Source: Streptosporangiales bacterium
GTDB taxonomy: Bacteria; Actinomycetota; Actinomycetes; Streptosporangiales; WHST01
Assembly (NCBI GenBank): GCA_009379955.1
Contig: WHST01000021.1
Span: 1 to 64,000 of the forward strand
Direction of reading: 5' to 3'
Length of the DNA stretch: 64,000 bases
This document shows, piece by piece, positions 26,016 to 40,877 of the stretch. Positions within the stretch are counted from its first letter, which is position 1, and each line of letters opens with the position of its first letter. A program made the position numbers and the translations under genes. A model generated the notes under the pieces. It made no database searches. It was not told where the DNA came from and was given only the letters and a program-made list of their open reading frames with translations.

Positions 26016-27179
26016 TCATCCCACGGTGGCCTTGCCGGTGAGCAGGGACTTGGCGATGACCGTGCGCAGCACGTCGTTGGTGCCTTCGCCGATGGCCATC
26101 AGCGGTGCGTCACGGTACAGCCGCTCGACCTCGAACTCCTGGGAGTACCCGTACCCTCCGTGGACACGCATCGAGTCGAGGGCGCAGTCGAGGGCCGTCT
26201 CCGAGGCGAAGACCTTGGCCATGCCGGTCTCGGTGTCCATGCGGTTGCCGGCATCCATCTGCGACGCCGCCCAGTAGGTCAGCAGGCGAGCGGCCTGCAG
26301 CCGGGTGGCCATCTCGGCGATACGCAGTTGCACGGCCTGGAAGTCTCCGATCGGGTGACCGAACGCCATCCGGCTGCGTGCGTACTGGAGCGCTTCGTCG
26401 TAGGCACGTTGGGACACCCCGATGGCGCGGGAGGCGACGTTGATCCGTCCGGTCTCCAGTGACGACAACGCCTGTTGCATGCCCTTGCCCTCGACACCAC
26501 CGAGCAGCTGATCGGCGTGGACACGGACGTCGGTGAGCACGACCTCGCAGGACTCCGGGCCCTTGTAGCCGATCTTGGGGATGTCCCTGGTGACCTCGTA
26601 GCCGGGTGTGTCCGCGTCGACGAGCAGGATGCTCATGCCCCGATGTGCCGGTTCCGCCGCGGGATCGGTCTTCACGAGCACCGGTAGCGGATCGGCGTAG
26701 CGGGCGTTGGTGATCCACGTCTTGGTGCCGTTGACGACGTAGTGGTCGCCGTCGCGGCGTGCCGTCGTCGCGATGCCCTGCAGGTCGGTGCCCGCGCCAG
26801 GCTCGGTGAGCGCGATGCCGGTACGGCGCGCGCCGGTGGCCAACTCGGGAAGGTACGTCCGCTGCTGCTCCTCCGTGCCGTGCCTGGCGATCATCCAGCA
26901 CGACACCGAGTGGCTGCCGAGTATCCCGGCGATCCCCATCCAACCTCGGGAGATCTCCTCGAACGTCAGCGCGAAGGACACGCTGTCGGCGCCCATCCCG
27001 CCGTAGGACTCGGGGACGAGCAGGCCGAACAGCCCGAGCTCGCGCATCTTGTCGACGATCTCCGACGGATAGCGGCCCGCACGCTCCCAGTCCCTGGCGA
27101 CCGGGATGATCTCCTTGTCGACGAAGGAACGCAGCGAGTCGCGGTAGAGGCGTTGCTCCGTACTGAGCTCGAAGTCCAT
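26016..27179 (-). CDS. acyl-CoA dehydrogenase
   Basis: A 387-aa FAD-dependent acyl-CoA dehydrogenase that introduces an alpha-beta double bond. It shows GIALTEPGAGTDLQGI (FAD/substrate region, about 126-141), VNGTKTWITNARYADPLPV, then RSRMAFGHPIGDFQAVQ and the final HGGYGYSQEF. The carboxyl-terminal EGTNDVLRTVIAKSLL contains the catalytic-base Glu position used in short- and medium-chain enzymes. ATG 27179 is the first Met of the family start MDFELSTEQ; the frame upstream is in the CoA-transferase gene. It is the last gene of a leftward MaoC-CoA transferase-dehydrogenase operon. Confidence 0.93.
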   Translation of the reverse strand: MDFELSTEQRLYRDSLRSFVDKEIIPVARDWERAGRYPSEIVDKMRELGLFGLLVPESYGGMGADSVSFALTFEEISRGWMGIAGILGSHSVSCWMIARHGTEEQQRTYLPELATGARRTGIALTEPGAGTDLQGIATTARRDGDHYVVNGTKTWITNARYADPLPVLVKTDPAAEPAHRGMSILLVDADTPGYEVTRDIPKIGYKGPESCEVVLTDVRVHADQLLGGVEGKGMQQALSSLETGRINVASRAIGVSQRAYDEALQYARSRMAFGHPIGDFQAVQLRIAEMATRLQAARLLTYWAASQMDAGNRMDTETGMAKVFASETALDCALDSMRVHGGYGYSQEFEVERLYRDAPLMAIGEGTNDVLRTVIAKSLLTGKATVG

Positions 27180-27186
27180 GGGTCTC

Positions 27187-28395
27187 CTAGTCGGACGGTG
27201 GGGTGCCGAACGCGCCGTCGGCGGAGAGGGTGGCGACGGTGTCGTCGTCGTAGCCGAGGATCGCGCGCAAGATGTCGCTGGTGTCCTCACCGAGTTGAGG
27301 CGCACGGCGATGGTGCCGCGGCGGGCTGCCCACCCGTGCGGGCGAGCTGACCTGTCTGACCTCGCCGAAGCGCGGGTGATCGGTCGAGACGACGAGCTCT
27401 CGCGCGAGCGTGTGCTCCTCCCGCAACGCGTGGGCGACGTCGTTGACCGGCGCGCACGGCACCGAAGCAGTGCGCAGCAGGGAGAGCCACTCGGTGACGG
27501 TGCGCTGGATCAGGACGGCGTCGAGGATGTCCTCGAGCTCAGCGCGGTGAGCGGCCCGGTCGGGGAACGTGGCGAAACGTGGATCCGTCGCGAGCTCGGG
27601 CCGGCAGACGACGTCGAGAAGCCGTCGCCAGAACTTCTCCTTCGGGCAGGCGATGATGAGCCAACCGTCCTTGGCCGGGAACGCCTGGAACGGGACGAGG
27701 GACGGGTGCGCCGAGCGGCGTGTGCGCACGGGCGTGTAGCCGTCGGTGAGATGCCATGTCGCGGGGTACGTGAGCAGGCTTATCGCCGTGTCGTACAGGC
27801 TGATGTCGCAGTCCATCCCGACGCCGTCACGGCGAGCGGCGTGGACACCGGCGAGCAGTGACAGCGCGGCGACGAACCCGCCGCTGTAGTCGACGAGCGA
27901 AGGCCCGGTCTTCTCCGGTGGGCCGTCCGGGTCGCCGGTGAGCGACATCCAGCCCGCATATCCCTGCAGCACGTAGTCGTAGCCCGGTTCGGCCGCCCGC
28001 GGACCGGTCATGCCGAACCCGGAGAGCGAACAGCACACGATCCGCGGGTTGAGGTGCCTGAGGTCGTCGTAGCGGATGCCGAGCTTGGCCGGCACGTCCC
28101 CCCGCAGGTTGGAGTACACGACATCGGAGTGCCGGACCAGATCCTCGAACACCGCGCGGCCTGCCGCGTTGCGGACGTCGAGGGAGATGCTGCGCTTGTC
28201 GCGGTTGAACGATTCGAAGAACAGTGAGTCCTGGCCCTCGGCGTACGGCGGCACGTACCTGCCGACGTCGCCACCGACGGAGGGGTCCTCGACCTTGATC
28301 ACCTCGGCACCGAGATGCGCGAGGTGCAGCGAGCCGAACGGACCGGCGCCGTACTGCTCGAGCGAGAGGATCCTGATGTCCTCCAACGGCTTCAT
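27187..28395 (-). CDS. CoA transferase (CaiB/BaiF, class III)
   Basis: A 402-aa class III CoA transferase, moving CoA between acids through an aspartyl-CoA intermediate. It begins PLEDIRILSLEQYGAGPFG. The conserved nucleotide/CoA region is HLGAEVIKVEDP, and the catalytic Asp is in GPSLVDYSGGF (about residue 168). Later landmarks are DGWLIIACPKEKFW and VPCAPVNDVAHAL. ATG 28395 lies 3 bp after the MaoC stop, and the acyl-CoA dehydrogenase starts 7 bp after its own stop. It probably activates the pathway acid to its CoA ester. Confidence 0.93.
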   Translation of the reverse strand: MKPLEDIRILSLEQYGAGPFGSLHLAHLGAEVIKVEDPSVGGDVGRYVPPYAEGQDSLFFESFNRDKRSISLDVRNAAGRAVFEDLVRHSDVVYSNLRGDVPAKLGIRYDDLRHLNPRIVCCSLSGFGMTGPRAAEPGYDYVLQGYAGWMSLTGDPDGPPEKTGPSLVDYSGGFVAALSLLAGVHAARRDGVGMDCDISLYDTAISLLTYPATWHLTDGYTPVRTRRSAHPSLVPFQAFPAKDGWLIIACPKEKFWRRLLDVVCRPELATDPRFATFPDRAAHRAELEDILDAVLIQRTVTEWLSLLRTASVPCAPVNDVAHALREEHTLARELVVSTDHPRFGEVRQVSSPARVGSPPRHHRRAPQLGEDTSDILRAILGYDDDTVATLSADGAFGTPPSD

Positions 28396-28398
28396 GGG

Positions 28399-28938
28399 TC
28401 ACGGCTCCAGTGGCTTCTTGGCCTGCGGGAACGTCGTGCGGGCGAGGTCGGCCCCCCGCTTGTGCACGTAGAACGTCCGCACGAACGACAGTGTCTCGTC
28501 ACCATGCTGGTTCAGCGTGCGCGTCTTGACGGTGACGATCCCCGCCTGCGGCCTGCTGGCGGACTCCCGCTTCGCCAGCACCAGCGACTCCGACCACAAG
28601 GTGTCTCCCGCGAAGACGGGATGCGTGAGCGCCAGCTTGTCCAGCCCGAGATTGGCGAACGCGTTCTGGGTGGTGTCGGTGACGCTCTGTCCGATCGCGA
28701 TCGCGATGGTCAGCGTCGACACCACCAGCGGCCTGCCGAACTCGGACGCCCGTCCGGCCTCCGCGTTGAAGTGCACCTCGTTGGTGTTCATCGTGAGCAG
28801 GGTGAACCACGTGTTGTCGGTCTCGGTCACCGTGCGGCCGAGCGGATGCCGGTAGACGTCCCCGATCTCGAAGTCCTCGTAGAACCGCCCCCGCCAGCCA
28901 GGCGAGATCGTCGAGGGCGCGTCGCGGTGCTGGGTCAC
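28399..28938 (-). CDS. MaoC-like hotdog-fold hydratase
   Basis: A 179-aa MaoC-type dehydratase/hydratase. It contains FYEDFEIGDVYRHPLGRTVT, then DNTWFTLLTMNTNEVHFN (the N..H active-site element of the R-hydratase family), and HPVFAGDTLWSESLV. It probably hydrates the enoyl-CoA made by the neighbouring dehydrogenase. This subtype is similar to mesaconyl-CoA hydratases, but the substrate is not certain. The start is GTG 28938. A 19-bp motif shared with the downstream PrpD promoter lies 17 bp upstream. Confidence 0.87.
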   Translation of the reverse strand: MTQHRDAPSTISPGWRGRFYEDFEIGDVYRHPLGRTVTETDNTWFTLLTMNTNEVHFNAEAGRASEFGRPLVVSTLTIAIAIGQSVTDTTQNAFANLGLDKLALTHPVFAGDTLWSESLVLAKRESASRPQAGIVTVKTRTLNQHGDETLSFVRTFYVHKRGADLARTTFPQAKKPLEP

Positions 28939-29053: not shown

Positions 29054-29881
29054 GTGGCACCGACCATGACCTCGAACGGACCGCCGCGGACCGCCGGCGA
29101 ACCGGTGGAGACCGCAACGCTGCGCGGAAAGCAGGCGGCGGCGACGCGCCTGCGGGTGCAGCGCGTGCGTCCCGCCTACCGGCAGGTCGCCGACGAGCTG
29201 CGTTCGCAGATCGTGGTCGGCGTGCTGGCCGCGGGAGAGCGGCTGCCGACCGAGCCCGAGCTCGGGGGGATGTTCGGTGTCAGCAGGGGAACCGTTCGCG
29301 AAGCCCTTCGGGTGCTCGCCAGTCAGCATCTGATCGAGACGACTCGCGGTGTGCACGGTGGATCTTTCGTCGCGGCGCCCGACCCCGCAAGGCTGATCGA
29401 GGACGTCGGTGGGGCGCTCGGCGTGCTGGTCATGACCCCGCAGCTGTCGGTCGCCGACATGCTGGAAGCACGACTGCTGCTGGAACCGGCCGCGGCCAGG
29501 CTGGCGGCCGAGCGAGCGGACGAGGACACCGTCGAGGCTGTCAGGGTCGCCGCTCGTGCTCCGCGGGACGCGAGGGATCCGAGCGGGTTCGCACCGCACA
29601 TCGACTTCCACACCACGGTGCTGATGGCCACCGGCAACCTCATGCTCGCCATGATGCTGCAGCCGGTCAGCGATGTGCTGCGCGTCCGGCTCGAGCGGGC
29701 GAAGGCCGATGATCGTTCGCTGTGGGACGGGATCGACGCGTGCCACGTGACGATCGCGGACGCCATCGCTGCCGGCGACGCCACACGGGCGCAGGACCTG
29801 ATGCGCGAGCACCTGGTCGAGTTGCGGCCGCTGTACGAGCAGATCGACAACCTGCATGCGACGTCCGAGCCCGGCGCCTGA
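29054..29881 (+). CDS. FCD-domain GntR family regulator
   Basis: A 275-aa FadR-subfamily regulator. The winged HTH (about 40-105) reads QVADELRSQIVVGVLAAGER then LGGMFGVSRGTVREALRVLA. The C-terminal FCD ligand-binding helical domain has LEARLLLEPAAARLAAE and FAPHIDFHTTVLMATGN, with metal-binding Asp/His residues. FCD regulators respond to organic acids or acyl compounds. GTG 29054 or ATG 29066 could be the start; neither has a strong ribosome site. The motif copies on either side of the gene suggest control of both the leftward CoA arm and the rightward PrpD-HyuAB arm. Confidence 0.87.
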   Translation: MAPTMTSNGPPRTAGEPVETATLRGKQAAATRLRVQRVRPAYRQVADELRSQIVVGVLAAGERLPTEPELGGMFGVSRGTVREALRVLASQHLIETTRGVHGGSFVAAPDPARLIEDVGGALGVLVMTPQLSVADMLEARLLLEPAAARLAAERADEDTVEAVRVAARAPRDARDPSGFAPHIDFHTTVLMATGNLMLAMMLQPVSDVLRVRLERAKADDRSLWDGIDACHVTIADAIAAGDATRAQDLMREHLVELRPLYEQIDNLHATSEPGA

Positions 29882-29896
29882 GTCGACCAAAAAAAC

Positions 29897-29915
29897 TCGG
29901 ACGTTTACTTGCCAA
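29897..29915. promoter_or_regulatory. candidate FCD-GntR operator, copy B
   Basis: TCGGACGTTTACTTGCCAA is the second copy of the motif found at 28955-28973. It lies 15 bp after the regulator stop and 107 bp before the MmgE/PrpD start, in the promoter region of the rightward operon. Confidence 0.65.
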
Positions 29916-30021
29916 GCCTCAGGGCGTATGCGAATGTACTGGGGCATGGGGCAGGTCGTCACGGTTCCCCGCCACGACCCGTGACCTCTCCCCTCGTGTC
30001 AACGTGAGGTGGTGTCGATCG

Positions 30022-31407
30022 ATGTCCGGAGCGGCGACGACTGCTGCCGAGGTGGGCGCCTTCGCGGCGGAGTTGCGGTACGAGGACCTGCCGCACGACG
30101 TCGCCGAGCGGGCACGCCATCTGGTGCTGGACTCCGTCGGCATCGCATTCGCCTCGACCGCGTTCGACTTCTCGAAGCGAGCGGCGGACGCGCTGAACGG
30201 CTTCGGTGCCGGCGACTGCCCGGTGATCGGGATGAGGCACCGGCTGCCCGTTCGCGACGCGGCGACTCTCAACGGCGTGCTGATCCACGGCCTGGACTTC
30301 GACGACACGCACACCGCCGGCATCGTGCACGTCACCGCCGGCGCGTTCCCCGCCGCCCTCGGCGCGGGATGGCATCACGAGAGGTCGTGCCGCGACGTGC
30401 TGGTCGCGTACGTGCTGGCGGTCGAGATCGCGGCACGGATCGGAATCGGTGCGAGAGGCGGGTTCCACGACGCCGGCTTCCATCCGACCGGCGTTGCAGG
30501 CGCCTTCGGTGCCGCCGTCGCGGCCGGCAAGCTGGCCGGCCTCGACGCGCCGGGGATCGCCTCCGCGCAGGGAGTCGTCGGCTCCATGGCGGCCGGCCTG
30601 ATGGAGTTCCTCGAGGACGGCTCCTGGACCAAGCGGCAGCACCCGGGCTGGGCCGCGGCATGTGGACTCAACGCCGCCGCGCTCGCCGGCGCCGGCTGGG
30701 TCGGCCCGCCGGCCGTCTACGAGGGCAGGTTCGGGCTCTACGCGACTCACCTCCCCGGCGTCGTGACCGACGCACAGGCCGTCTCGCGCGATCTCGGCTC
30801 GGTCTGGGAGCTGACGGCCACGGCCGTGAAGCCCTATCCGGCCTGCCACTTCACGCACGCGTTCATCGACCTGACCCTTGCCCTGCTCGGCGAGTCCGGC
30901 GCGAGCGCGTCCGACATCGAGAGCATCCGGTGCCTCATCCACCCAATCCCCGGCAAGGTCGTGTGCGAGCCGGCCGAGAACAAGCGCCGGCCGACGAGCG
31001 ACTACGACGCGAAGTTCAGCCTCGCCTACCTCGTCGCGGCCGCCGCGACCCGCGGCCGGCTCACGCTGACCGAGCTCGAGGACGACGCACTCGCCGATCC
31101 CGCCATTCTCGCCCTGTGCGACCGGGTGGAGGTCGCCGATGATCCGGACAGCGCCTTTCCCGATGCCTATTCGGGATTCGTCGAGATCACGCTGACGGAC
31201 GGGCGCCGGCTGGCCCGCCGCGAGCAGATCAATCGTGGCCACGCGGACCGGCCGCTGACCAACGAGGAGATAGTGGAGAAGTTCCGGGGAACGATCGGAA
31301 CGGTGACCGACAAGAGGACCGCGGACCGGGTGTACGAAGCGGTGATGACACTCGGCGCGGACGTTCCGGCACGACAGCTCGCCGAGCGGTGCCGGCTCGA
31401 AGAGTGA
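30022..31407 (+). CDS. MmgE/PrpD family protein
   Basis: A 461-aa protein of the MmgE/PrpD superfamily, which includes 2-methylcitrate dehydratase, cis-aconitate decarboxylase and iminodisuccinate epimerase. Landmarks include LVLDSVGIAFAS, AATLNGVLIHGLDFDDTH, GFHPTGVAGAFGAA and KPYPACHFTHAFID. The family acts on polycarboxylates, often eliminating water or CO2. Exact reaction not determinable. ATG 30022 has GAGGTGG nine bases upstream; the longer frame before it overlaps the regulator. It is the first gene of the rightward operon. Confidence 0.87.
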   Translation: MSGAATTAAEVGAFAAELRYEDLPHDVAERARHLVLDSVGIAFASTAFDFSKRAADALNGFGAGDCPVIGMRHRLPVRDAATLNGVLIHGLDFDDTHTAGIVHVTAGAFPAALGAGWHHERSCRDVLVAYVLAVEIAARIGIGARGGFHDAGFHPTGVAGAFGAAVAAGKLAGLDAPGIASAQGVVGSMAAGLMEFLEDGSWTKRQHPGWAAACGLNAAALAGAGWVGPPAVYEGRFGLYATHLPGVVTDAQAVSRDLGSVWELTATAVKPYPACHFTHAFIDLTLALLGESGASASDIESIRCLIHPIPGKVVCEPAENKRRPTSDYDAKFSLAYLVAAAATRGRLTLTELEDDALADPAILALCDRVEVADDPDSAFPDAYSGFVEITLTDGRRLARREQINRGHADRPLTNEEIVEKFRGTIGTVTDKRTADRVYEAVMTLGADVPARQLAERCRLEE

Positions 31408-31478: not shown

Positions 31479-32991
31479 ATGGCCAAGACGGGCAAGGCCG
31501 TCCGGGGCGCAGCAGAGCAGCGATCGTTCGACCTGCTCATCGGCGGGACATGGGTCGAGTCCCGGTCCGGTGCGCGGTTCGAGACGATCAATCCGTACGT
31601 CGGGGCGGCCTGGGCGACCGTGCCGTACGCGGACGAACTGGATGTCGACGATGCGGTGCGTGCGGCGAACGCCGCGCTGTCCGGGCCCTGGGGCACGATG
31701 ACGGCCTCGGCACGGGGAAGGCTCGTTCGCCGGCTCGGGGAGCTGATCGGCGAGCACGCGGACGAACTCGCCGTCATCGAGACGACCGACAACGGGAAAC
31801 TGCTGCGGGAGATGACCGGTCAGCTGCAGTCGCTGCCTGACTGGTACGACTACTTCGGCGGAATGGCCGACAAGCTCGAGGGCAGCACGCCTCCCGCGGT
31901 GAAACCGTCGATGTTCGCCTACACCCGGTACGAGCCGGTCGGCGTCGTCGGCGCGATCCTGCCCTGGAACAGCCCGCTGCTGTTACTGACCTTCAAGCTC
32001 GCGCCCGCGCTGGCCGCCGGATGCACGTTCGTCGTCAAGCCAGCCGAGCAGACTCCTGCGTCCGCGCTGGCGTTCGGTCGGCTCGTCGAGGAAGCGGGCA
32101 TCCCGCCGGGTGTGTTCAACGTGGTGACCGGCGATGGTGAGACCGGACGTCTCCTGGCCAGTCATCCCGGCGTCGACAAGGTCGCGTTCACCGGCTCGAC
32201 GGCGAGCGGGATCAGCGTCATGAAGTCGGCGGCCGACCACCTGGCGAAGGTCACGCTGGAGCTCGGTGGGAAGTCGCCGAACATCGTGTTCGCCGACGCC
32301 GACCTCGAGGCCGCGGCGAACGGCGTGATCGCCGGTATCTTCGCCGCGACAGGGCAGACCTGCATCGCGGGAAGCAGGCTGGTGGTCGAGGACTCCGTGC
32401 ACGACGAGCTCGTCGACCGGATAGCCGAGCGGGCGCGCACCGATCAAGCTGGGAGACCCGCTCGAGCAGGACACCGAGATGGGACCGGTCGCGTTCAAGG
32501 AGCAACTCGACAAGATCCTGTCCTATGTCGACATCGGCTCGTCCGAGGGTGCGACCGTCCGGTGTGGCGGCAAGCGAGCCGGCAGCGAGAACCTGAGAGA
32601 CGGCTACTTCTTCGAGCCGACGATCCTCACGGACGTCCGTAACGACATGCGGGTGGCACAGGAGGAGATCTTCGGCCCGGTCCTGTCGGTCGTCCGCTTC
32701 TCCGACGAGGACGACGCGGTCCGGATCGCCAACGACACCCGGTACGGACTCGGTGCCGGCGTGTGGACGACCAATGTCGCGCGGGCACACCGGATGGCCC
32801 ATCAGGTCAGAGCCGGGACCGTGTGGGTCAACTGCTATCGGGTTCTCACCTTCAACGTGCCGTTCGGTGGCTATAAGCAGAGCGGTATCGGGCGCGAGAA
32901 CGGTATCGACGCCATACGCGAGTACACCGAGACCAAAGCGGTGTGGATAAACCTGACCGACGAGACAAGGGATCCCTTCGTCCTCGGCTGA
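31479..32991 (+). pseudogene. aldehyde dehydrogenase interrupted by a +1 frameshift
   Basis: An NAD(P)-dependent aldehyde dehydrogenase split over two frames. The first part, from ATG 31479, has VGAILPWNSPLLL, KPAEQTPASA, the glutamate motif LELGGKSPN and the catalytic Cys in ATGQTCIAGSR. It then leaves the family at about 32441. Reading one base later gives IKLGDPLEQDTEMGPV, the expected continuation, and EEIFGPVLSVV to the stop at 32991. One extra base near 32442 explains this. Joined, it would be about 503 aa, the normal length. It is either a recent mutation or a sequencing/assembly error; both active-site residues lie before the shift. Confidence 0.85.
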
Positions 32992-33102: not shown

Positions 33103-35172
33103 ATGCCGAAATATCATCTCGGTATCGACGTCGGTGGGACGTTCACCGATGCGGTGCTGGTGTCGTTGGACGACGGTTCTGTCAGCAGGTGCAAGGTGCG
33201 CACCACACCCGAGGATCAGTCGGTGGGGGTGCTCGACGCGATCAGCGAGTTCGACATCTCGCCGAGCGACATCTCGATGTTCAGTCACGGCAATACCGTG
33301 GCGATCAACGCGCTGCTGGAGCGCAAGGGCCCGAAGACGGGACTGATCTGCACCGAGGGCACCCGCGACATGCTCGACATGGGCGGCCTGGTGCGTCCAC
33401 CCGGGGACGAGCTCTACGACGCGACCTGGACCAGACCGCACCTGGAGCGCCCGCTCGTGCACCGCCGCTACATCCGCGACATCAGGGAGAGGCTGATCTC
33501 CGACGGCTCGGTGCACGTCGGGCTGGACGAGGACTCGGTGCGCAAGGAGGTGCAGTTCCTGAAGGACGAGGGTGTGGAGTCGGTCGCGATCTGCCTCCTG
33601 CACGCGTACGTCAACCCCGCACACGAGAACAGGGTCGAGGACATCGTTCGAGAGGTGATGCCGGACGCCTACGTGCAGGCCTCGTCGATCCGACCGGTCA
33701 TCGGTGAGCTGGATCGGACGTTCACCGTCGTCCTGAACGCCTACACGGGCCCGGTGATCGGCAGGTATCTCAACCGGCTCCGCGATCGGTTGAAGGAGAT
33801 CGGTTACGACGGCGACGTCCTGGTGACCCAGATGAACGGCGGTGTGCGCACGCTCGAGCGCACCATCGAGGAGCTGCCCGGCTACACGATCCAGTCCGGC
33901 CCGACAGCGGGGTTGCTCGGGGCCGAGGCATACGCCCGCGAGATCCTCGACGAGAAGAACTTCCTCTGCGTCGACATCGGCGGGACCAGCACCGACATCG
34001 GCCTGGTCGACGACGGCCAGGCGCTCAAGACCGACGACTGGGAGCTGGAGTTCGGTATCCGGCTCGGGTTCCCGGCTCTCGACGTGCGCAGCATCGGCGC
34101 CGGCGGTGGCAGCATCATCCAGCTGGACGAGCTGGGCACGCTACGCATCGGCCCGGAGAGCGCCGGCGCGGTACCCGGCCCCGCGTCGTACGGCCGCGGC
34201 GGCATCGAGCCGGCGATCACCGACGCGCTCGTCGCGATGGGCATCGTCCAGCCCGAGCTCTTCCTCGACGGCAGGATGGAGTTGTCCCGCGATGCCGCGG
34301 TGGCCGCGCTCGAGACCGTCGCCGAGCCGCTGAGCATGACCGCGCTCGAGCTTGCGTGTGGTGTCTTCGATCTGATGAACGCACAGATCGAGCAGGAGAC
34401 CAGCAAGATCATCTTCGAGCGGGCGGTCGATCCGAAGGACTTCGTCCTGCTCGCGTACGGCGGTGCCGGCCCGGTACATGCGGCCAGCATCGCCCGCATC
34501 GCGGGCATCAGCAGGGTCGTCATCCCGTACTTCCCTGGCGGGTTCAGTGCGCTGGGCATGGTCGTCGCACCGCTGCGGGCCGAGCACGCGGTCTCGGTCG
34601 TCGGCCAGATCGACGTCATCGGGCCGGAGCGGCTCCAGGAGATCTTCGAGAAGCTCGGCGCGCAGGTGACCGGCGACCTGACGAGCCAAGGGGTCGACGT
34701 CGAGGACGTGACGATCGAGCGGTCGCTGCACGGACACTACGTCGGGCAGGGCTTCGCGAACAGGATTCCGTTCACCGGCTGGCCGGTGACGACCGAGGCG
34801 ATCGAGGAGTGGAAGCAGGGCTTCCACGCGTTCTACGACAAGTCCTACGGCTATTCGGCACCGGAGTCGCCGATCGAGGTGACGACCATGACCGTCTCCG
34901 GCAGCGGGCGACCTGGCCGGATGCCGGTGACGAGGATTCCTTCCGGCGGAGCGCAACCGGACGAGGACGCCCTGGTCATGGTCAGGGACGTGTGCCTCGA
35001 CGGCAGGACGTGGCAGCAGATGCCCTTCTACCACCGCACGGCACTGCGGGCCGGCAACCGCATCGAAGGACCGGCTGTCGTGGACGACGGATTGTCCACG
35101 ATCCTGGTCACCCCCGAGTCGACGGCCTCGGTCGATGACTACGGCGACGTCATCATCGACATCCGGGCTTGA
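33103..35172 (+). CDS. HyuA-like subunit (hydantoinase A / ketone carboxylase / oxoprolinase family)
   Basis: A 689-aa ASKHA-fold ATPase-like subunit. It begins HLGIDVGGTFTDAVLV, the phosphate-1 loop. The middle has IQSGPTAGLLGAEA, VDIGGTSTDIGLV and SIGAGGGSI, followed by PGPASYGRGG and LLAYGGAGPVHAA. This family covers N-methylhydantoinase A, 5-oxoprolinase, caprolactamase and the large subunits of acetone and acetophenone carboxylase. ATP-driven phosphorylation of the substrate or its enolate is the shared chemistry. ATG 33103 has TAGGAG five bases upstream. It forms a pair with the HyuB-like gene 17 bp later. Confidence 0.9.
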   Translation: MPKYHLGIDVGGTFTDAVLVSLDDGSVSRCKVRTTPEDQSVGVLDAISEFDISPSDISMFSHGNTVAINALLERKGPKTGLICTEGTRDMLDMGGLVRPPGDELYDATWTRPHLERPLVHRRYIRDIRERLISDGSVHVGLDEDSVRKEVQFLKDEGVESVAICLLHAYVNPAHENRVEDIVREVMPDAYVQASSIRPVIGELDRTFTVVLNAYTGPVIGRYLNRLRDRLKEIGYDGDVLVTQMNGGVRTLERTIEELPGYTIQSGPTAGLLGAEAYAREILDEKNFLCVDIGGTSTDIGLVDDGQALKTDDWELEFGIRLGFPALDVRSIGAGGGSIIQLDELGTLRIGPESAGAVPGPASYGRGGIEPAITDALVAMGIVQPELFLDGRMELSRDAAVAALETVAEPLSMTALELACGVFDLMNAQIEQETSKIIFERAVDPKDFVLLAYGGAGPVHAASIARIAGISRVVIPYFPGGFSALGMVVAPLRAEHAVSVVGQIDVIGPERLQEIFEKLGAQVTGDLTSQGVDVEDVTIERSLHGHYVGQGFANRIPFTGWPVTTEAIEEWKQGFHAFYDKSYGYSAPESPIEVTTMTVSGSGRPGRMPVTRIPSGGAQPDEDALVMVRDVCLDGRTWQQMPFYHRTALRAGNRIEGPAVVDDGLSTILVTPESTASVDDYGDVIIDIRA

Positions 35173-35189
35173 AGGGAATCGACGACACC

Positions 35190-37181
35190 ATGGACTCCGG
35201 TGCACAGGCAGTGATGACTGCCAAGACGATCAAGAGCGACTACGACCTCGACCTGGTGACCGCCGAGACCATCAGAGCGGGTCTGATCGAGACGACTCGG
35301 CACATGCGCAACAACCTGGTGCGCAGCGCCTTCTCCAACGTGGTCCGCGACATCCTCGACTTCGGTGTCGCCGTGCACAGCGTGAGCGACGAGGGCAGCG
35401 AGATGGCGGCGATCACCGAAGGGTGCTGCCACTTCGCGTTCACTCACCAGCACATGACGAACATGGTCCTGGACGAATGGGGCTACCAGAACCTCGGTCC
35501 GGGCGACACGCTGTTCTGCAACGACCCGTGGCGCGGCTCGATCCACTTCCTCGACGTCAACCTGTTCCGTCCGGTCTTCTGGAAGGACGAGATCGCGTTC
35601 GTCCTGACCGATGCCACGCACATCACCGACATCGGTGGCCCCGTCGCAGGGGGGTTCAACGCCGGCGCGACGACGCACTTCGAGGAGGGCCTGCGGGTTC
35701 CTCCCACGCTGATCACCTCGGCCGGCAAGCCGGTCAGGTCGACGATCAACCTCCTGCTGGAGAACACCCGCACCCCGTTCGAGAACCTCGGTGACCTGCG
35801 TGCGCTGTTCGGCACGCTCCGGGTCGGCGAGGCCAGGCTGTCCGCGCTCCTGGAGCGGTACGGCATCGATGCGGTGAAGGCCGGCGCGCGGTACTCGCTC
35901 GATCTCGCCGAGAAGCGCATGCGTCGTGCGATCGAGGCGATTCCCGACGGGGTGTGGGAGGGCGAGGAGTTCATCGACGACGACGCGATCGGTGACGACC
36001 CGATCCGGTTGCATGCCTCGGTCCGCAAGGTCGGTGACTCGGTCGAGGTCGACTACTCGGGCAGCGACCGGCAGCCGCTCGGGGCACTGATGACGTGCTG
36101 GGAGGAGACGAACCGGTCCCTGATCGGCTCGAAGATGATCCTCGATCCGCGGCACCCGATGAACGCCGGCGCGATGCGGCCGTTCCACGTCCTCGCACCT
36201 GCCGGTTCCGTCGTGATGGGCCTGCCGCCCGCCAGCCAGAGCATGCACACCGAGGTCGCCGCGCACGCGTGCAACCTGATGCTCTCGATCTTCGGGCGCA
36301 TGGGCGGCGAGCAGGCGATCGCGGTGGAGAGTGCCAACACCCACGTGCACGTGTTCGGCGGGATCGACTCCCGGCCCGGCCGCGAAGGCACGCCGTGGGG
36401 CCAGATCCTCGCCGCCGGGGCGTCGTGGGGCGGCACGAACACCAACGACGGGATCAGCTTCAACATCACCGCGATCTTCAACATCGCCGACAACACGATC
36501 GAGCTGCTCGAGCGCGACAATCCGGTGGTCGTCAGGGGCCGCAACCTGCTGATGGATGCCGCGGCAGCCGGCAAGTTCCGCTCCGGGTTCGCCAACGCAC
36601 TCATGGTCGAGTGTCTCGGTGACGCGGCCTCCTCGTCGCATCTGCTCGACTCGGGCCGGTTCGTCAGGGACGGCCTCGACGGTGGGGGCGCGGGCATGAC
36701 GGCCTACCTGTACATGATCAACCGGCAGGACGACGGCTCGGTACGCCAACGCCACGGGCTCGTGCCGATGGAGGACCTGGAGCCGCTCGCCGGCAAGGTC
36801 GACGAGACCGGTGCGCCCGACCCGGAGTTCGGCGAGTGGTGCCGTGACACGAAGTTCAAGACGCTCAAGCTCACCGGGAACCCGATCAAGAAGGGCGATG
36901 TGGTCTTCATCATCTGCTCGACCGGCGGCGGGTACGGCAGTCCGCTCGAGCGTGACCCGGAGGCGGTGCGGCTCGACGTGTGGAACGAGAAGGTGTCCAT
37001 CGACTTCGCGAAGCGGGCGTACGGCGTCGACATCGACGCGGAGACGCTGACCGTCGACGAGGTCGGGACCAAGATGCTGCGCGAGGATCTGCGCGGCCGC
37101 GAGTCCGCCGGCGACTGGAAGCCACCGGTAGCCGGATTCCGGCCCTGGCCGCAGACCTGGTCCGAACTCGAACGACTCTGA
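35190..37181 (+). CDS. HyuB-like subunit (hydantoinase B / ketone carboxylase family)
   Basis: A 663-aa partner of HyuA. It has LFCNDPWRGSIHFLDV (about 109-124, the metal-site region of HyuB), THITDIGG, then the C-terminal GGGYGSPLERDPEAV typical of the family. In acetone or acetophenone carboxylase this subunit hosts the carboxylation chemistry; in hydantoinases it hydrolyses the phosphorylated ring. Sequence alone does not separate these. ATG 35190 is chosen over TTG 35169, which gives a poor N terminus. The gene is followed 22 bp later by the zinc-ribbon gene. Confidence 0.9.
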   Translation: MDSGAQAVMTAKTIKSDYDLDLVTAETIRAGLIETTRHMRNNLVRSAFSNVVRDILDFGVAVHSVSDEGSEMAAITEGCCHFAFTHQHMTNMVLDEWGYQNLGPGDTLFCNDPWRGSIHFLDVNLFRPVFWKDEIAFVLTDATHITDIGGPVAGGFNAGATTHFEEGLRVPPTLITSAGKPVRSTINLLLENTRTPFENLGDLRALFGTLRVGEARLSALLERYGIDAVKAGARYSLDLAEKRMRRAIEAIPDGVWEGEEFIDDDAIGDDPIRLHASVRKVGDSVEVDYSGSDRQPLGALMTCWEETNRSLIGSKMILDPRHPMNAGAMRPFHVLAPAGSVVMGLPPASQSMHTEVAAHACNLMLSIFGRMGGEQAIAVESANTHVHVFGGIDSRPGREGTPWGQILAAGASWGGTNTNDGISFNITAIFNIADNTIELLERDNPVVVRGRNLLMDAAAAGKFRSGFANALMVECLGDAASSSHLLDSGRFVRDGLDGGGAGMTAYLYMINRQDDGSVRQRHGLVPMEDLEPLAGKVDETGAPDPEFGEWCRDTKFKTLKLTGNPIKKGDVVFIICSTGGGYGSPLERDPEAVRLDVWNEKVSIDFAKRAYGVDIDAETLTVDEVGTKMLREDLRGRESAGDWKPPVAGFRPWPQTWSELERL

Positions 37182-37203
37182 TCGACTGGAAGGCGAATCC
37201 ACC

Positions 37204-37527
37204 ATGGGCTGGCAGCATCGATACACCCAGCAACCTCCCGCCGAGGCGCAGATCCACGTCGAGCGCGTTCCCGTCGACGGGCAGACCTGCCCGCGCTGCG
37301 GCGGCGTCGACATCCGGCGCTACCCGATCGCGAACCATCTCGGGCCGCGTATCGCCACGAAGTGCCAGACGTGCTTGTACGCGCTGGCGATCGAGCGGCC
37401 GAAGGAGGAGGACAACTGGCCGCCGTTCCGCTCGGTGACCTATGACTGGGAGGCGTCTCCTGCCGAGCGCGCGTCGCGAGAGCTCTCGTTGCGTGACGCC
37501 GGCTTCGCGAAGAAGGCGTCGGGATGA
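37204..37527 (+). CDS. small zinc-ribbon protein of the HyuA/HyuB operon
   Basis: A 107-aa protein with a four-Cys zinc ribbon: CPRCGG (about 31-36) and CQTC (about 58-61). The rest is soluble and has no known catalytic motif. Acetone carboxylase gamma and the small acetophenone carboxylase subunit are similar small zinc proteins encoded beside HyuA/HyuB-like subunits, so this is a candidate third subunit. That is an inference from size, zinc ribbon and position, since overall similarity is not visible by eye. GGAAGG precedes the ATG. It overlaps the first alcohol dehydrogenase by 4 bp (ATGA). Confidence 0.8.
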   Translation: MGWQHRYTQQPPAEAQIHVERVPVDGQTCPRCGGVDIRRYPIANHLGPRIATKCQTCLYALAIERPKEEDNWPPFRSVTYDWEASPAERASRELSLRDAGFAKKASG

Positions 37528-38672
37528 CGGCGATGCCAACGTCCGTCGGCATCCCCAAGACCAGCAAGGCCGCAGTCATCACGGCGTTCAACGAACCGCT
37601 GGAGATCCGGGAGATCCCGATCCCCGACATCGAGCCGGGTGCACTGCTCGTCAGGATCGAGGCCGCGTCCATCTGCGGCACCGACGTGCACCTGTGGGAC
37701 GGCTCGCTCGGCGCCAGTCAGCCGATCGACCTTCCCGTCATTCCCGGGCACGAGATGGTGGGCAACATCGTCGCCTTCGGCGACGGCGCGCACACCGACT
37801 CGGCCGGTGCCGGACTCGAGCTCGGCGACCGGATCGTGTTCACCCACGCCGGCTGCGGGAAGTGCCACCACTGCGTCATCACGGGACAGCCGAGCCTGTG
37901 CAGGCAGCGGAGGTACTACATCTTCAGCAACTGCGAGCAGCCTCCGTACCTGGTGGGTGGTTTCGCCGAGTACTGCTATGTCTTCCCGACCTCGGGCCGG
38001 ATCAAGGTGCCCGACGACGTCAAGACCGAGTGGGCATCGGCCGCGAGCTGCGCGCTGCGTTCGGTCGTCAACTCCTTCCAGCGCCTCGGCACGATCGAGC
38101 CGTGGGAGACCGTCGTGATCCAGGGCGCGGGTCCCCTGGGACTGTTCGCCACCGCCGTTGCCAGTCACTCCGGTGCCGGGCGCATCGTCGTGATCGGGGA
38201 CCCGGAGAGCAGGCTCGCTCTCGCTCGGAGCTGGGGAGCGACCGACACCATCTCGGTCGCCGACCATCCCGAACCCGAGAGCAGGGTCCAGGCCGTCCGG
38301 GAGCTGACCGGAGGTGCCGGTTCGGAGATCGTCATGGAGTTCTCCGGCGCCCGTACCGTCTTCGGTGAGGGTCTCGACATGGTCCGCGACGGGGGCCGCT
38401 TCGTGATCATCGGTCAGGTCGGCCCGCAGGAGTGCCTCATCCGCCCCACGACCGTCACCCGGCGTCAGCTGACCATCCTCGGCTCCTGGTCGGGGGAGGC
38501 GGCCCAGTACTGGCGTGCCCTACAGTTCCTGAGCCGCACCAAGCACAAGTTCGACTTCGACCAACTGCTGTCGAACCGGTACCACCTCGACGAGATCAAC
38601 GTCGCGATGGCGAAGATGCAGTCGTACGAGGAGATCAAACCGATCGTCCTGCCCAGCCTCGCGGCCGGGTAG
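37524..38672 (+). CDS. zinc-dependent alcohol dehydrogenase (MDR family) 1
   Basis: A 382-aa medium-chain dehydrogenase. Catalytic zinc ligands are in CGTDVHLWDG (about residue 51) and GHEMVG. The structural zinc lobe reads CGKCHHC with a fourth Cys eight residues on. The NAD(P) fold has VVIQGAGPLGLFA (about 195-207). It likely oxidises a secondary alcohol or a polyol; the HyuA/HyuB context suggests an alcohol-to-ketone step. It begins inside the zinc-ribbon stop (ATGA) and is followed by a related dehydrogenase. Confidence 0.9.
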   Translation: MTAMPTSVGIPKTSKAAVITAFNEPLEIREIPIPDIEPGALLVRIEAASICGTDVHLWDGSLGASQPIDLPVIPGHEMVGNIVAFGDGAHTDSAGAGLELGDRIVFTHAGCGKCHHCVITGQPSLCRQRRYYIFSNCEQPPYLVGGFAEYCYVFPTSGRIKVPDDVKTEWASAASCALRSVVNSFQRLGTIEPWETVVIQGAGPLGLFATAVASHSGAGRIVVIGDPESRLALARSWGATDTISVADHPEPESRVQAVRELTGGAGSEIVMEFSGARTVFGEGLDMVRDGGRFVIIGQVGPQECLIRPTTVTRRQLTILGSWSGEAAQYWRALQFLSRTKHKFDFDQLLSNRYHLDEINVAMAKMQSYEEIKPIVLPSLAAG

Positions 38673-38691
38673 GCGGAAGGACGACGAGGAC

Positions 38692-39774
38692 ATGGCCAGA
38701 GGACGGCTCGCCTACCAGACCCAGCCCGGCACGGTCGAGATCCGCGAGTACGAGCTACCGACGCCGAGGGCGGGAGGGCTGCTCCTGGAGACCGTCGCCG
38801 CCGGCATCTGCGGGTCGGACGTGCACATCTTCGCGGGCAAGCATCCGCTCAAGAAAATGGCGCTCGGACACGAGATCATCGCCAGGGTGACCGATCCCTC
38901 GACGCGGCCGCTGGACAGCGCCGGGGTCACCCTGTCCGAGGGTGACCGGGTCTCGGTGGTGTACTTCCAGGGCTGCCGGCACTGCCCGGCGTGCGCTCGT
39001 GGCGACTACGAGCTGTGCACCACGGGGTACGCCAAGTGGATGCAGTCGCCTGACGAGTTCCCGCATTTCGTCGCCACCTGCGGCACGCATTACTACCTCG
39101 ATCCGACGCAGGCGTTCTTCAAGGTGCCGGACGACGTGTCCTCACGAGCGGCGACGAGTGCGAACTGCGCGCTGTCCCAGGTGTTCTGCGGTGTCGACCG
39201 CGCTCAGGTGCGGGCCGGCAACCACGTCGTCATCCAGGGAGCCGGTGGGCTCGGCCTCTACGCCACGGCGGTGGCCAAGGAACGTGGCGCCACGGTCACC
39301 GTGCTGGACGGGGCCGACAACCGGTTGGAGACCGCGAAGCAGTTCGGGGCCGACCACGTCGTGTCGCTGAACGAGCATCCGACCGTCGAGGAGCGACGTG
39401 ACCTCGTCTTCGACCTCACCGAAGGGGAGGGTGCGGACATCGCGTTCGACCTCACCGGCGTGCCGGAGGCGATCGTCGAGGGCGTGCGGCTCCTGCGGAC
39501 CGGTGGGTGCTACATCGAGATCGGCAACGTGCTTCCAGGGACGAGCATCGAGTTCGACTTCGCTGATGCCGCGAGGCGCGCGATCACCATCGTTCCCGTC
39601 ATCCGCTACGCCCCTCGCTACCTGAGGGAGTCGTTGCGGTTCCTCTCCAGGAACGCGCACACGTTGCCGCTCGAGCAGATGATCGACAGGACGTTCTCGC
39701 TCGACGAGGTGACGACGGCGATGGAGGAGTCCCGGCTGCGCAGGCTCAACAGGGCGGCGATCAGTTTCGAGTAG
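38692..39774 (+). CDS. zinc-dependent alcohol dehydrogenase (MDR family) 2
   Basis: A 360-aa medium-chain dehydrogenase related to the preceding one. It keeps CGSDVHIFAG, GHEIIA, the structural zinc lobe CRHCPAC with its fourth Cys, and VVIQGAGGLGLYATA. The two may act on successive or alternative alcohols, or form a mixed oligomer. It starts 19 bp after the first dehydrogenase and is the last gene of the rightward operon, followed by a strong terminator hairpin. Confidence 0.9.
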   Translation: MARGRLAYQTQPGTVEIREYELPTPRAGGLLLETVAAGICGSDVHIFAGKHPLKKMALGHEIIARVTDPSTRPLDSAGVTLSEGDRVSVVYFQGCRHCPACARGDYELCTTGYAKWMQSPDEFPHFVATCGTHYYLDPTQAFFKVPDDVSSRAATSANCALSQVFCGVDRAQVRAGNHVVIQGAGGLGLYATAVAKERGATVTVLDGADNRLETAKQFGADHVVSLNEHPTVEERRDLVFDLTEGEGADIAFDLTGVPEAIVEGVRLLRTGGCYIEIGNVLPGTSIEFDFADAARRAITIVPVIRYAPRYLRESLRFLSRNAHTLPLEQMIDRTFSLDEVTTAMEESRLRRLNRAAISFE

Positions 39775-39966: not shown

Positions 39967-40791
39967 TCAGCGGAAGGTGCCGAAGATGGCCGCGAAGTCG
40001 TTGGCGCCAGGGGTCGGGATGTCGCCGGTCTTGGCGGCCGCGCGCACCTCGCCGAAGAGCGCGCCGATGTGCCGGATCACGGCCTCCCGCGCCGCGGCCG
40101 CGTCGCGGTGGACGATGGCGGCCAGCACGGCGCGGTGGTGCGGGTCGAAGCGCTCCTCGGCGCGGGCGAGTGCCAGGGTGTGCACGCGGAACCCGACCAG
40201 GCGGGGGACGAGCGGCAGGTAGGCCTGCAGCAGCAGGTCGTTGTGCGCGGCGCGGACGATCGCCTCGTGGACGAGCTCGTCGGTGTGGATCAGCTCGTCG
40301 CGGTCGCCCTTCCCGCGTGCCGCCTCGTGCTCGCGGCAGCGCGCGGCGAGGGTGTCGATGTCGGCCTGGGTGGCGCGGACGCACGCCAGCCCGGCGGCCG
40401 CGAGCTCGAGCGCGAGGCGTACCTCGAGGACCTCGGCGGTGGCGGGTCCCTCGGTCACGCTCCAGTGCGTGAACTGCGGCGTGCGGTCGGCGCCGGCGGG
40501 CTGCCGGACGAACGTGCCACGCCCCCTGACCACCTCGACCACGCCGAGCGTGTGCAGCTTGCGGATCGCCTCGCGCAGCGAGCTCCGGCCGACCTGGAAC
40601 TGACGGGCGAGCTCGGGCTCGGACGGGAGCCGGTCGCCGGGGCGCAGTGTGCCGGACTCGATCTCCGCCGTGAGCCGGTCGGCCACGGTGTCGGGGACCG
40701 ATCGGCGCTCGAGCGGCTGGTACCGGACCGGCCCGTTCGCGGCGTCGCCCCCGTCGTCGAGCTCCGGTGCTCTCGTCGTCACGGAGACCAT
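39967..40791 (-). CDS. FCD-domain GntR family regulator (second locus)
   Basis: A 274-aa FadR-subfamily repressor. HTH region: VADRLTAEIESGTLRPGDRL then ELARQFQVGRSSLREAIRKL. The FCD domain shows LALELAAAGLACVRA, IHTDELVHEAIVRAAHND (metal-ligand region) and a final HIGALFGEV. ATG 40791 has GGCAGG just upstream; an in-frame start at 40845 would place the operator inside the gene. It is divergent from the LLM-to-Mo hydroxylase operon, which it probably represses. Confidence 0.87.
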   Translation of the reverse strand: MVSVTTRAPELDDGGDAANGPVRYQPLERRSVPDTVADRLTAEIESGTLRPGDRLPSEPELARQFQVGRSSLREAIRKLHTLGVVEVVRGRGTFVRQPAGADRTPQFTHWSVTEGPATAEVLEVRLALELAAAGLACVRATQADIDTLAARCREHEAARGKGDRDELIHTDELVHEAIVRAAHNDLLLQAYLPLVPRLVGFRVHTLALARAEERFDPHHRAVLAAIVHRDAAAAREAVIRHIGALFGEVRAAAKTGDIPTPGANDFAAIFGTFR

Positions 40792-40817
40792 CCTGCCATC
40801 CCATGGAGCTTGACTGA

Positions 40818-40826
40818 TGTCAGACA
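40818..40826. promoter_or_regulatory. FCD-GntR operator
   Basis: TGTCAGACA is a perfect palindrome with an A centre. On the reverse strand TTGTCTGACAT fits the TnGTnnnACnA consensus of FadR-type operators. It lies 26 bp upstream of the regulator and 51 bp before the LLM gene, fitting autorepression and control of the rightward operon. Confidence 0.7.
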
Positions 40827-40877
40827 ACAGATTAATTTTCGGCAATCGGGGTCGTGAGACGAGAAGGGCGGGCGCGG

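Follow-up and report, generated by a model that had tools for sequence, protein, structure and literature searches.

A HyuA-type gene, a HyuB-type gene and a gene for a small four-Cys zinc-ribbon protein, named ZnR here, lie one after the other on the + strand and are followed by two zinc-dependent alcohol dehydrogenase genes (ADH1 and ADH2), forming a tightly packed block (33103–39774). The start of ADH1 overlaps the ZnR stop by 4 bases, and no other gap within the block exceeds about 20 bases. The window, i.e., the whole stretch of DNA that was analyzed, is 64,000 nt long (GC 71%) and comes from a 6.6-Mb draft genome. The genes at the locus, with the basis of each assignment, are:

26016–27305, − strand: acyl-CoA dehydrogenase, divergent; a role in the same pathway is presumed (profile matches)
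27187–28395, − strand: CoA-transferase family III, divergent; presumed role likewise (profile matches)
28399–28938, − strand: MaoC-type hydratase, divergent; presumed same-pathway role (profile matches)
29054–29881, + strand: GntR/FCD regulator, probable local regulator (Pfam)
29722–31407, + strand: MmgE/PrpD-family protein, domain from about 30055, probable operon member (Pfam)
31479–32991, + strand: aldehyde dehydrogenase (ALDH), broken frame, probable operon member (ORFs, Pfam)
33103–35172, + strand: HyuA-type ASKHA ATPase subunit (Pfam, PDB relatives, motifs, trees)
35187–37181, + strand: HyuB-type metal subunit (Pfam, ligand columns, tree)
37204–37527, + strand: ZnR, small four-Cys zinc-ribbon subunit, subtype A, RYPIANHLGPR..KCQTC...EEDNWPPFR (sequence, relatives, predicted fold)
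37524–38672, + strand: zinc-dependent MDR alcohol dehydrogenase 1 (sequence, profile matches)
38692–39774, + strand: zinc-dependent MDR alcohol dehydrogenase 2 (sequence, profile matches)
39967–40845, − strand: second GntR/FCD regulator, downstream bound of the cluster (profile match)

The first-pass annotation had described a closely spaced trio with two zinc alcohol dehydrogenases, and the Pfam matches, the coordinates and the four Cys residues of the 107-amino acid protein agree with it. Profile matches also located the divergent CoA-transferase III, MaoC and acyl-CoA dehydrogenase genes and the MmgE/PrpD and ALDH genes that it had listed, with the correction that the ALDH frame is broken. 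The frameshift, near 32440–32460, leaves two ORFs (31479–32642 and 32479–32991) and represents either a draft-assembly error or a pseudogene. There are nine HyuA-type matches in the whole genome and one within the window. The operon includes no further subunit gene, so the alpha-prime and epsilon subunits of acetophenone carboxylase (Apc) have no counterpart there. No AMP-ligase was found among the genes scanned near the trio.

HyuA contains the Pfam domains Hydant_A_N, Hydantoinase_A and Hydant_A_C, and HyuB matched Hydantoinase_B with 359 bits; together, these domains place the pair in the hydantoinase/ketone-carboxylase superfamily. The ATP motifs of HyuA (DVGGTFTD, DIGGTSTD and GAVPGP) and the Asp-His-Asp-His metal ligand tetrad of HyuB, the latter known from CapB and the carboxylases (PMC8453981), are intact; both are common to all branches of the superfamily. 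Comparison with NCBIfam gave CapA as the best match of HyuA (491 bits, curated cut-off 1000), followed by ApcC (295) and ApcA (208), while HyuB matched CapB with 221 bits (curated cut-off 1000) and ApcD with 97. Among PDB entries, HyuA scored 388 bits with the N-methylhydantoinase 7hk5, 357 with 6yra, 311 with Apc and 275 with acetone carboxylase (Acx). The top matches of HyuB were also 6yra and 7hk5, with Apc and Acx far lower. We take 6yra, deposited as a 5-oxoprolinase, to be the structure of the caprolactamase CapAB from Pseudomonas jessenii.

The four Cys residues of ZnR are arranged as CPRC and CQTC, with 21 residues between the pairs. The AlphaFold model shows a zinc-ribbon core of three strands, predicted with confidence (core pLDDT about 96). 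The Foldseek matches listed for this model were generic zinc ribbons only, headed by a transcription-factor zinc ribbon (probability 0.84), and neither Apc nor Acx gamma was among them. In Pfam and NCBIfam, ZnR matched no model above cut-off. The first-pass annotation had likened the protein to the small subunits of the ketone carboxylases, but profile comparison with AcxC and the Apc small subunit revealed no detectable relation to gamma. PF08882, the gamma profile, did not match ZnR at E values up to 1, and hhalign of ZnR against the gamma family, assembled from several genomes and verified with 5l9w_C and 5svb_C, returned a probability of 10.5% over 15 columns. The nearest proteins by sequence are VdcD/ShdD (NCBIfam E 2.7e-4 for the best member, PDB E 0.19), and hhalign with a piece of ShdD gave a probability of 66%. 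The window genome also includes an Apc/Acx-like locus with two HyuA genes and with HyuB and a PF08882 gamma in one frame, apparently a natural fusion (L009 3376–6879, contig C171).

A contig scan with a single HyuA sequence as query gave no matches, and an alignment of four ZnR sequences was used instead. Across 84,980 species genomes, this alignment found 80 loci. HyuA was adjacent to ZnR in all 80, and HyuB was present too except in a few short or truncated loci; therefore, the association is not due to chance and the small zinc protein is, as had been supposed, a true conserved partner of HyuAB. Its identification as a fragment of a transposase or of a ribosomal zinc ribbon was rejected on account of the conservation beside HyuAB in the 80 loci. 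Subtype A, to which the window protein belongs, follows HyuB and has the conserved tail PEPEDxWPAWRSPxRDWPASR. Subtype B has four Cys residues and normally precedes HyuA, and subtype C (18 sequences), also located before HyuA, has lost all four Cys residues and kept the rest. The median spacing between ZnR and HyuAB, on either side, is 24 bases. Since subtype C persists without the zinc cysteines, zinc is not essential there and ZnR most likely has a structural role. In Apc gamma, the zinc is far from the active site and has likewise been proposed to be structural (PMC5214803).

Other arrangements were observed among these loci. A second trio in the window genome (L010 7149–7493, contig C25) has a Cys-less subtype C ZnR and lies beside CMD, SDR and AMP-ligase genes. 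Eight Nocardia loci (L053, L055, L056, L059, L062, L063, L065 and L066) carry subtype A and subtype B trios head to head within about 8 kb. Two Pseudonocardia loci (L139 and L145) represent a third deep ZnR lineage with the order HyuA-HyuB-ZnR and a divergent ribbon, GWCLVARC..CLHVLRREPSPTPFGF. The window member shares about 42% identity with its nearest relatives, and no ZnR was detected in two genus-mate genomes, one of them only 77% complete; these two facts suggest that the substrate of the window system may be one of its own.

In a HyuA tree of 113 sequences, all ZnR-linked proteins formed one clade (support 99), within which subtype A, including the window protein, was also a single clade (99); the gamma-linked proteins joined Acx and Apc at the opposite side. 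The ZnR-linked and subtype A clades had SH-aLRT values of 98 and 95 in a HyuA tree of 54 rows computed under a better model (LG+C20), and of 99 and 99 in the HyuB tree. The ZnR-linked HyuA clade is separate and has 7hk5 and CapA as neighbors on the hydrolase side, a term that denotes an unrooted split only because the trees were midpoint-rooted, and it is not inside any characterized hydrolase clade. Grouping this clade with Acx/Apc was rejected by the AU test (p=0.00019). The position that would have counted against the first-pass annotation, one among hydantoinases or oxoprolinases, was thus found in part: HyuA and HyuB are on the hydrolase side of the trees, but they form their own clade outside those families, and its sampled members all have ZnR.

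Because the 80 loci had been picked by ZnR, 40 more were fetched by HyuA alone as a control for bias, and 36 of them were included in the tree. ZnR was present in 5/5 clade members and in 0/31 non-members. ZnR distances correlated with those of HyuA and HyuB (Mantel r about 0.70 and 0.71, respectively, with 0/2000 permutations as high; 0.68 and 0.65 within subtypes B and C), a measure that keeps shared ancestry in and hence speaks for co-inheritance, not for contact. Co-inheritance of ZnR in the HyuAB clade also sustains the earlier view that the system differs from a standard two-gene hydantoinase. The clade ranges from Actinomycetota to Desulfobacterota and Chloroflexota, and is found in Pseudomonadota and others too.

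Neighbors within 7 kb were compared between 47 ZnR loci and 45 ZnR-less two-gene HyuAB loci, using classes assigned by single-query phmmer. Genes for SDR (30/47 versus 7/45, p 2e-6), AMP-ligase (23/47 versus 3/45, p 6e-6), ALDH (13/47 versus 2/45, p 0.004) and enoyl-CoA hydratase (8/47 versus 0/45, p 0.006) were more frequent at ZnR loci, and dipeptide-type ABC transporters were rarer (2/47 versus 11/45, p 0.007), all p-values being uncorrected for the 22 classes and the loci not fully independent. Amidohydrolases (0/47 versus 4/45) showed a trend only. The ZnR-less controls were partly annotated plasmid records, and plasmids gave few ZnR matches. According to Pfam, the genes directly downstream code mostly for SDR, zinc ADH, AMP-ligase, CoA-transferase III and luciferase-like proteins, with CMD and others too; no amidase, amidohydrolase or N-carbamoylase was found among the directly downstream genes scanned.

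ALDH lies within 7 kb of six of the seven subtype A loci. The gene order is HyuA-HyuB-ZnR-SDR-ALDH in Nocardia, the same followed by MmgE/PrpD in Rhodococcus koreensis (L077), HyuA-HyuB-ZnR-AMP-ligase in A. keratiniphila, HyuA-HyuB-ZnR-SDR-AMP-ligase in P. dioxanivorans and ALDH-ADH-HyuA-HyuB-ZnR-AMP-ligase in A. deserti. More than one ZnR locus is present in P. dioxanivorans, with several in strain CB1190. The MmgE, ALDH and ADH genes of the window, therefore, recur with the trio. The alcohol dehydrogenase setting pointed out by the first-pass annotation is found again in these relatives and in the downstream genes. Its remark that MmgE/PrpD and ALDH fit no described version was too strong, since ALDH accompanies most subtype A trios and MmgE/PrpD is also present in R. 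koreensis. ZnR-less HyuAB genes occur with MmgE/PrpD, CoA-transferase III, MaoC and acyl-CoA dehydrogenase in the window genome itself (L005, C75) and, together with a CoA ester lyase and an amidase, in a plasmid of R. rhodochrous BX2 (L110). Clusters of this type possibly specify an imide or lactam pathway. As the set also accompanies ZnR-less HyuAB, it is not specific and does not point to ketones in particular.

The window trio is a putative ATP-using HyuAB enzyme with a small zinc partner and probably activates ketones made from alcohols. We know of no characterized enzyme from the ZnR-HyuAB clade. The reading that we tentatively favor, with a confidence slightly short of even, is that HyuA, HyuB and ZnR act on a carbonyl and most likely carboxylate the ketone derived from the ADH reaction, as the neighboring genes suggest. 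By analogy with solved relatives (PMC5214803, PMC8453981), HyuA would use ATP to phosphorylate the enol(ate) of the carbonyl compound, or bicarbonate, and the activated intermediate would move on to react at the metal of HyuB. For ZnR, the solved relatives and the cysteine loss in subtype C suggest a non-catalytic role in structure or docking. The neighbors indicate that the substrate in the window would most likely be a ketone that the coupled ADHs form from a secondary alcohol, and that the most likely reaction would be carboxylation to a beta-keto acid followed by CoA activation and cleavage; a near alternative would be the opening of a cyclic ketone by ATP-driven C-C cleavage. Carboxylation is favored because the AMP-ligases beside the trio could activate the beta-keto acid, as in Apc clusters. 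For the window trio itself, ketone carboxylation may be proposed from the gene neighbors. The clade support, the co-inheritance, the SDR, AMP-ligase and ALDH neighbors and the intact ATP and metal sites speak for the ketone reading. Against it are the location of the clade on the hydrolase side, the higher HyuA scores with CapA and N-methylhydantoinase than with Apc/Acx, and a ZnR with no detectable homology to gamma. In addition, ALDH and MmgE/PrpD are unneeded for simple ketone carboxylation, and the window has no nearby AMP-ligase.

An ATP-dependent hydrolase of a cyclic amide (hydantoin, lactam, imide or 5-oxoproline-like), stabilized by ZnR and with its product processed by ALDH, CoA-transferase and beta-oxidation-type steps, would agree with the hydrolase-side location in both trees, with CapA/CapB and N-methylhydantoinase as top named matches, and with the ZnR-less clusters described above, one of which includes an amidase. 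We consider it unlikely, although a real contender, because the NCBIfam scores are far below the curated cut-offs and ZnR loci are rich in SDR, AMP-ligase and ALDH and poor in dipeptide-type ABC transporters, with the amidohydrolase trend in the same direction. Besides, ketone carboxylases have a small zinc subunit, whereas characterized hydantoinase-type clusters consist of two genes with no small subunit (PMC5214803). Hydrolytic C-C ring opening of an ADH-made cyclic ketone or 1,3-diketone, in which HyuA would phosphorylate the enol, water would attack at the HyuB metal and ALDH would oxidize the ring-opened acid or semialdehyde, accounts for ADH and ALDH in the window subclade and for a clade positioned among hydrolases. 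Nonetheless, it seems improbable: ordinary C-C hydrolases work without ATP, and no characterized HyuAB with hydrolytic C-C cleavage was found in the literature surveyed, which was non-exhaustive. There is a similarly small probability that ZnR is an independent protein traveling with HyuAB, e.g., for regulation or as a carrier of metal or substrate, as its generic Foldseek matches would allow; a structural subunit fits better the strict one-clade co-inheritance, the tight spacing and the persistence without cysteines, and the weak sequence match, VdcD/ShdD, is an enzyme subunit. A diverged true Acx or Apc, to which the core subunit type, the small zinc-binding protein and the alcohol dehydrogenase setting might point, is very improbable in view of the AU test, the missing PF08882 match and the low hhalign probability, by which the earlier analogy is not homology, as well as of the Cys-pair spacing and the separate gamma-bearing Apc/Acx relative on another contig of the window genome.

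No paper describing the HyuAB plus ZnR arrangement was found in the open-access literature. Returning to carboxylation, a broader proposal, plausible but rather doubtful, is that ZnR-HyuAB is a separate ketone carboxylase family that arose from the hydrolase side with its own non-gamma small subunit, in which case ATP-dependent HyuAB carboxylation of ketones would have evolved twice and would be far more widely spread than one would expect from the known enzymes. ZnR-HyuAB breaks the published rule (PMC5214803) by having a small zinc subunit, of another family, and yet being on the hydrolase side. In many genomes of Nocardia, Rhodococcus, Pseudonocardia and Amycolatopsis, genes that now bear the annotation 'hydantoinase/oxoprolinase' probably have another function. 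The Cys-less subtype C provides a natural test of the purpose of zinc. If the trio is a true ketone carboxylase, CO2 would be fixed onto ketones by a new route.

Among the known systems, the ATP-dependent N-methylhydantoinase (7hk5) resembles the window in its HyuA/HyuB domains and ATP motifs and is the top PDB match of HyuA; it differs in having no small zinc subunit and other gene neighbors, and the window HyuA is in a separate clade. The caprolactamase CapAB likewise consists of two core subunits with the ATP motifs and the metal tetrad and is the best NCBIfam match of both proteins, but it has no ZnR, and the window proteins score less than half of the curated cut-offs. This two-gene enzyme, a hydrolase, also needs bicarbonate (PMC8453981). 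The VdcD/ShdD subunit of hydroxyarylic acid decarboxylases (7ae4) is, like ZnR, a small zinc ribbon with similar Cys spacing; its partners belong to a different enzyme family, and the likeness may be one of zinc-ribbon form alone. Acetophenone carboxylase (5l9w) shares the alpha and beta core and a small four-Cys zinc protein, but has alpha-prime and epsilon subunits, belongs to a separate clade, and its gamma, in which 49 instead of 21 residues separate the Cys pairs, is not detectably related to ZnR. In known Apc clusters, one of the genes encodes a CoA ligase that acts on the product (PMC5214803), comparable to the AMP-ligases at ZnR loci. Acetone carboxylase AcxABC (5svb, 5m45) is set apart by its clade, by the low HyuA match and by AcxC, a 168-amino acid PF08882 gamma-related protein, and it resembles the window trio in having three subunits encoded in the order alpha-beta-small.
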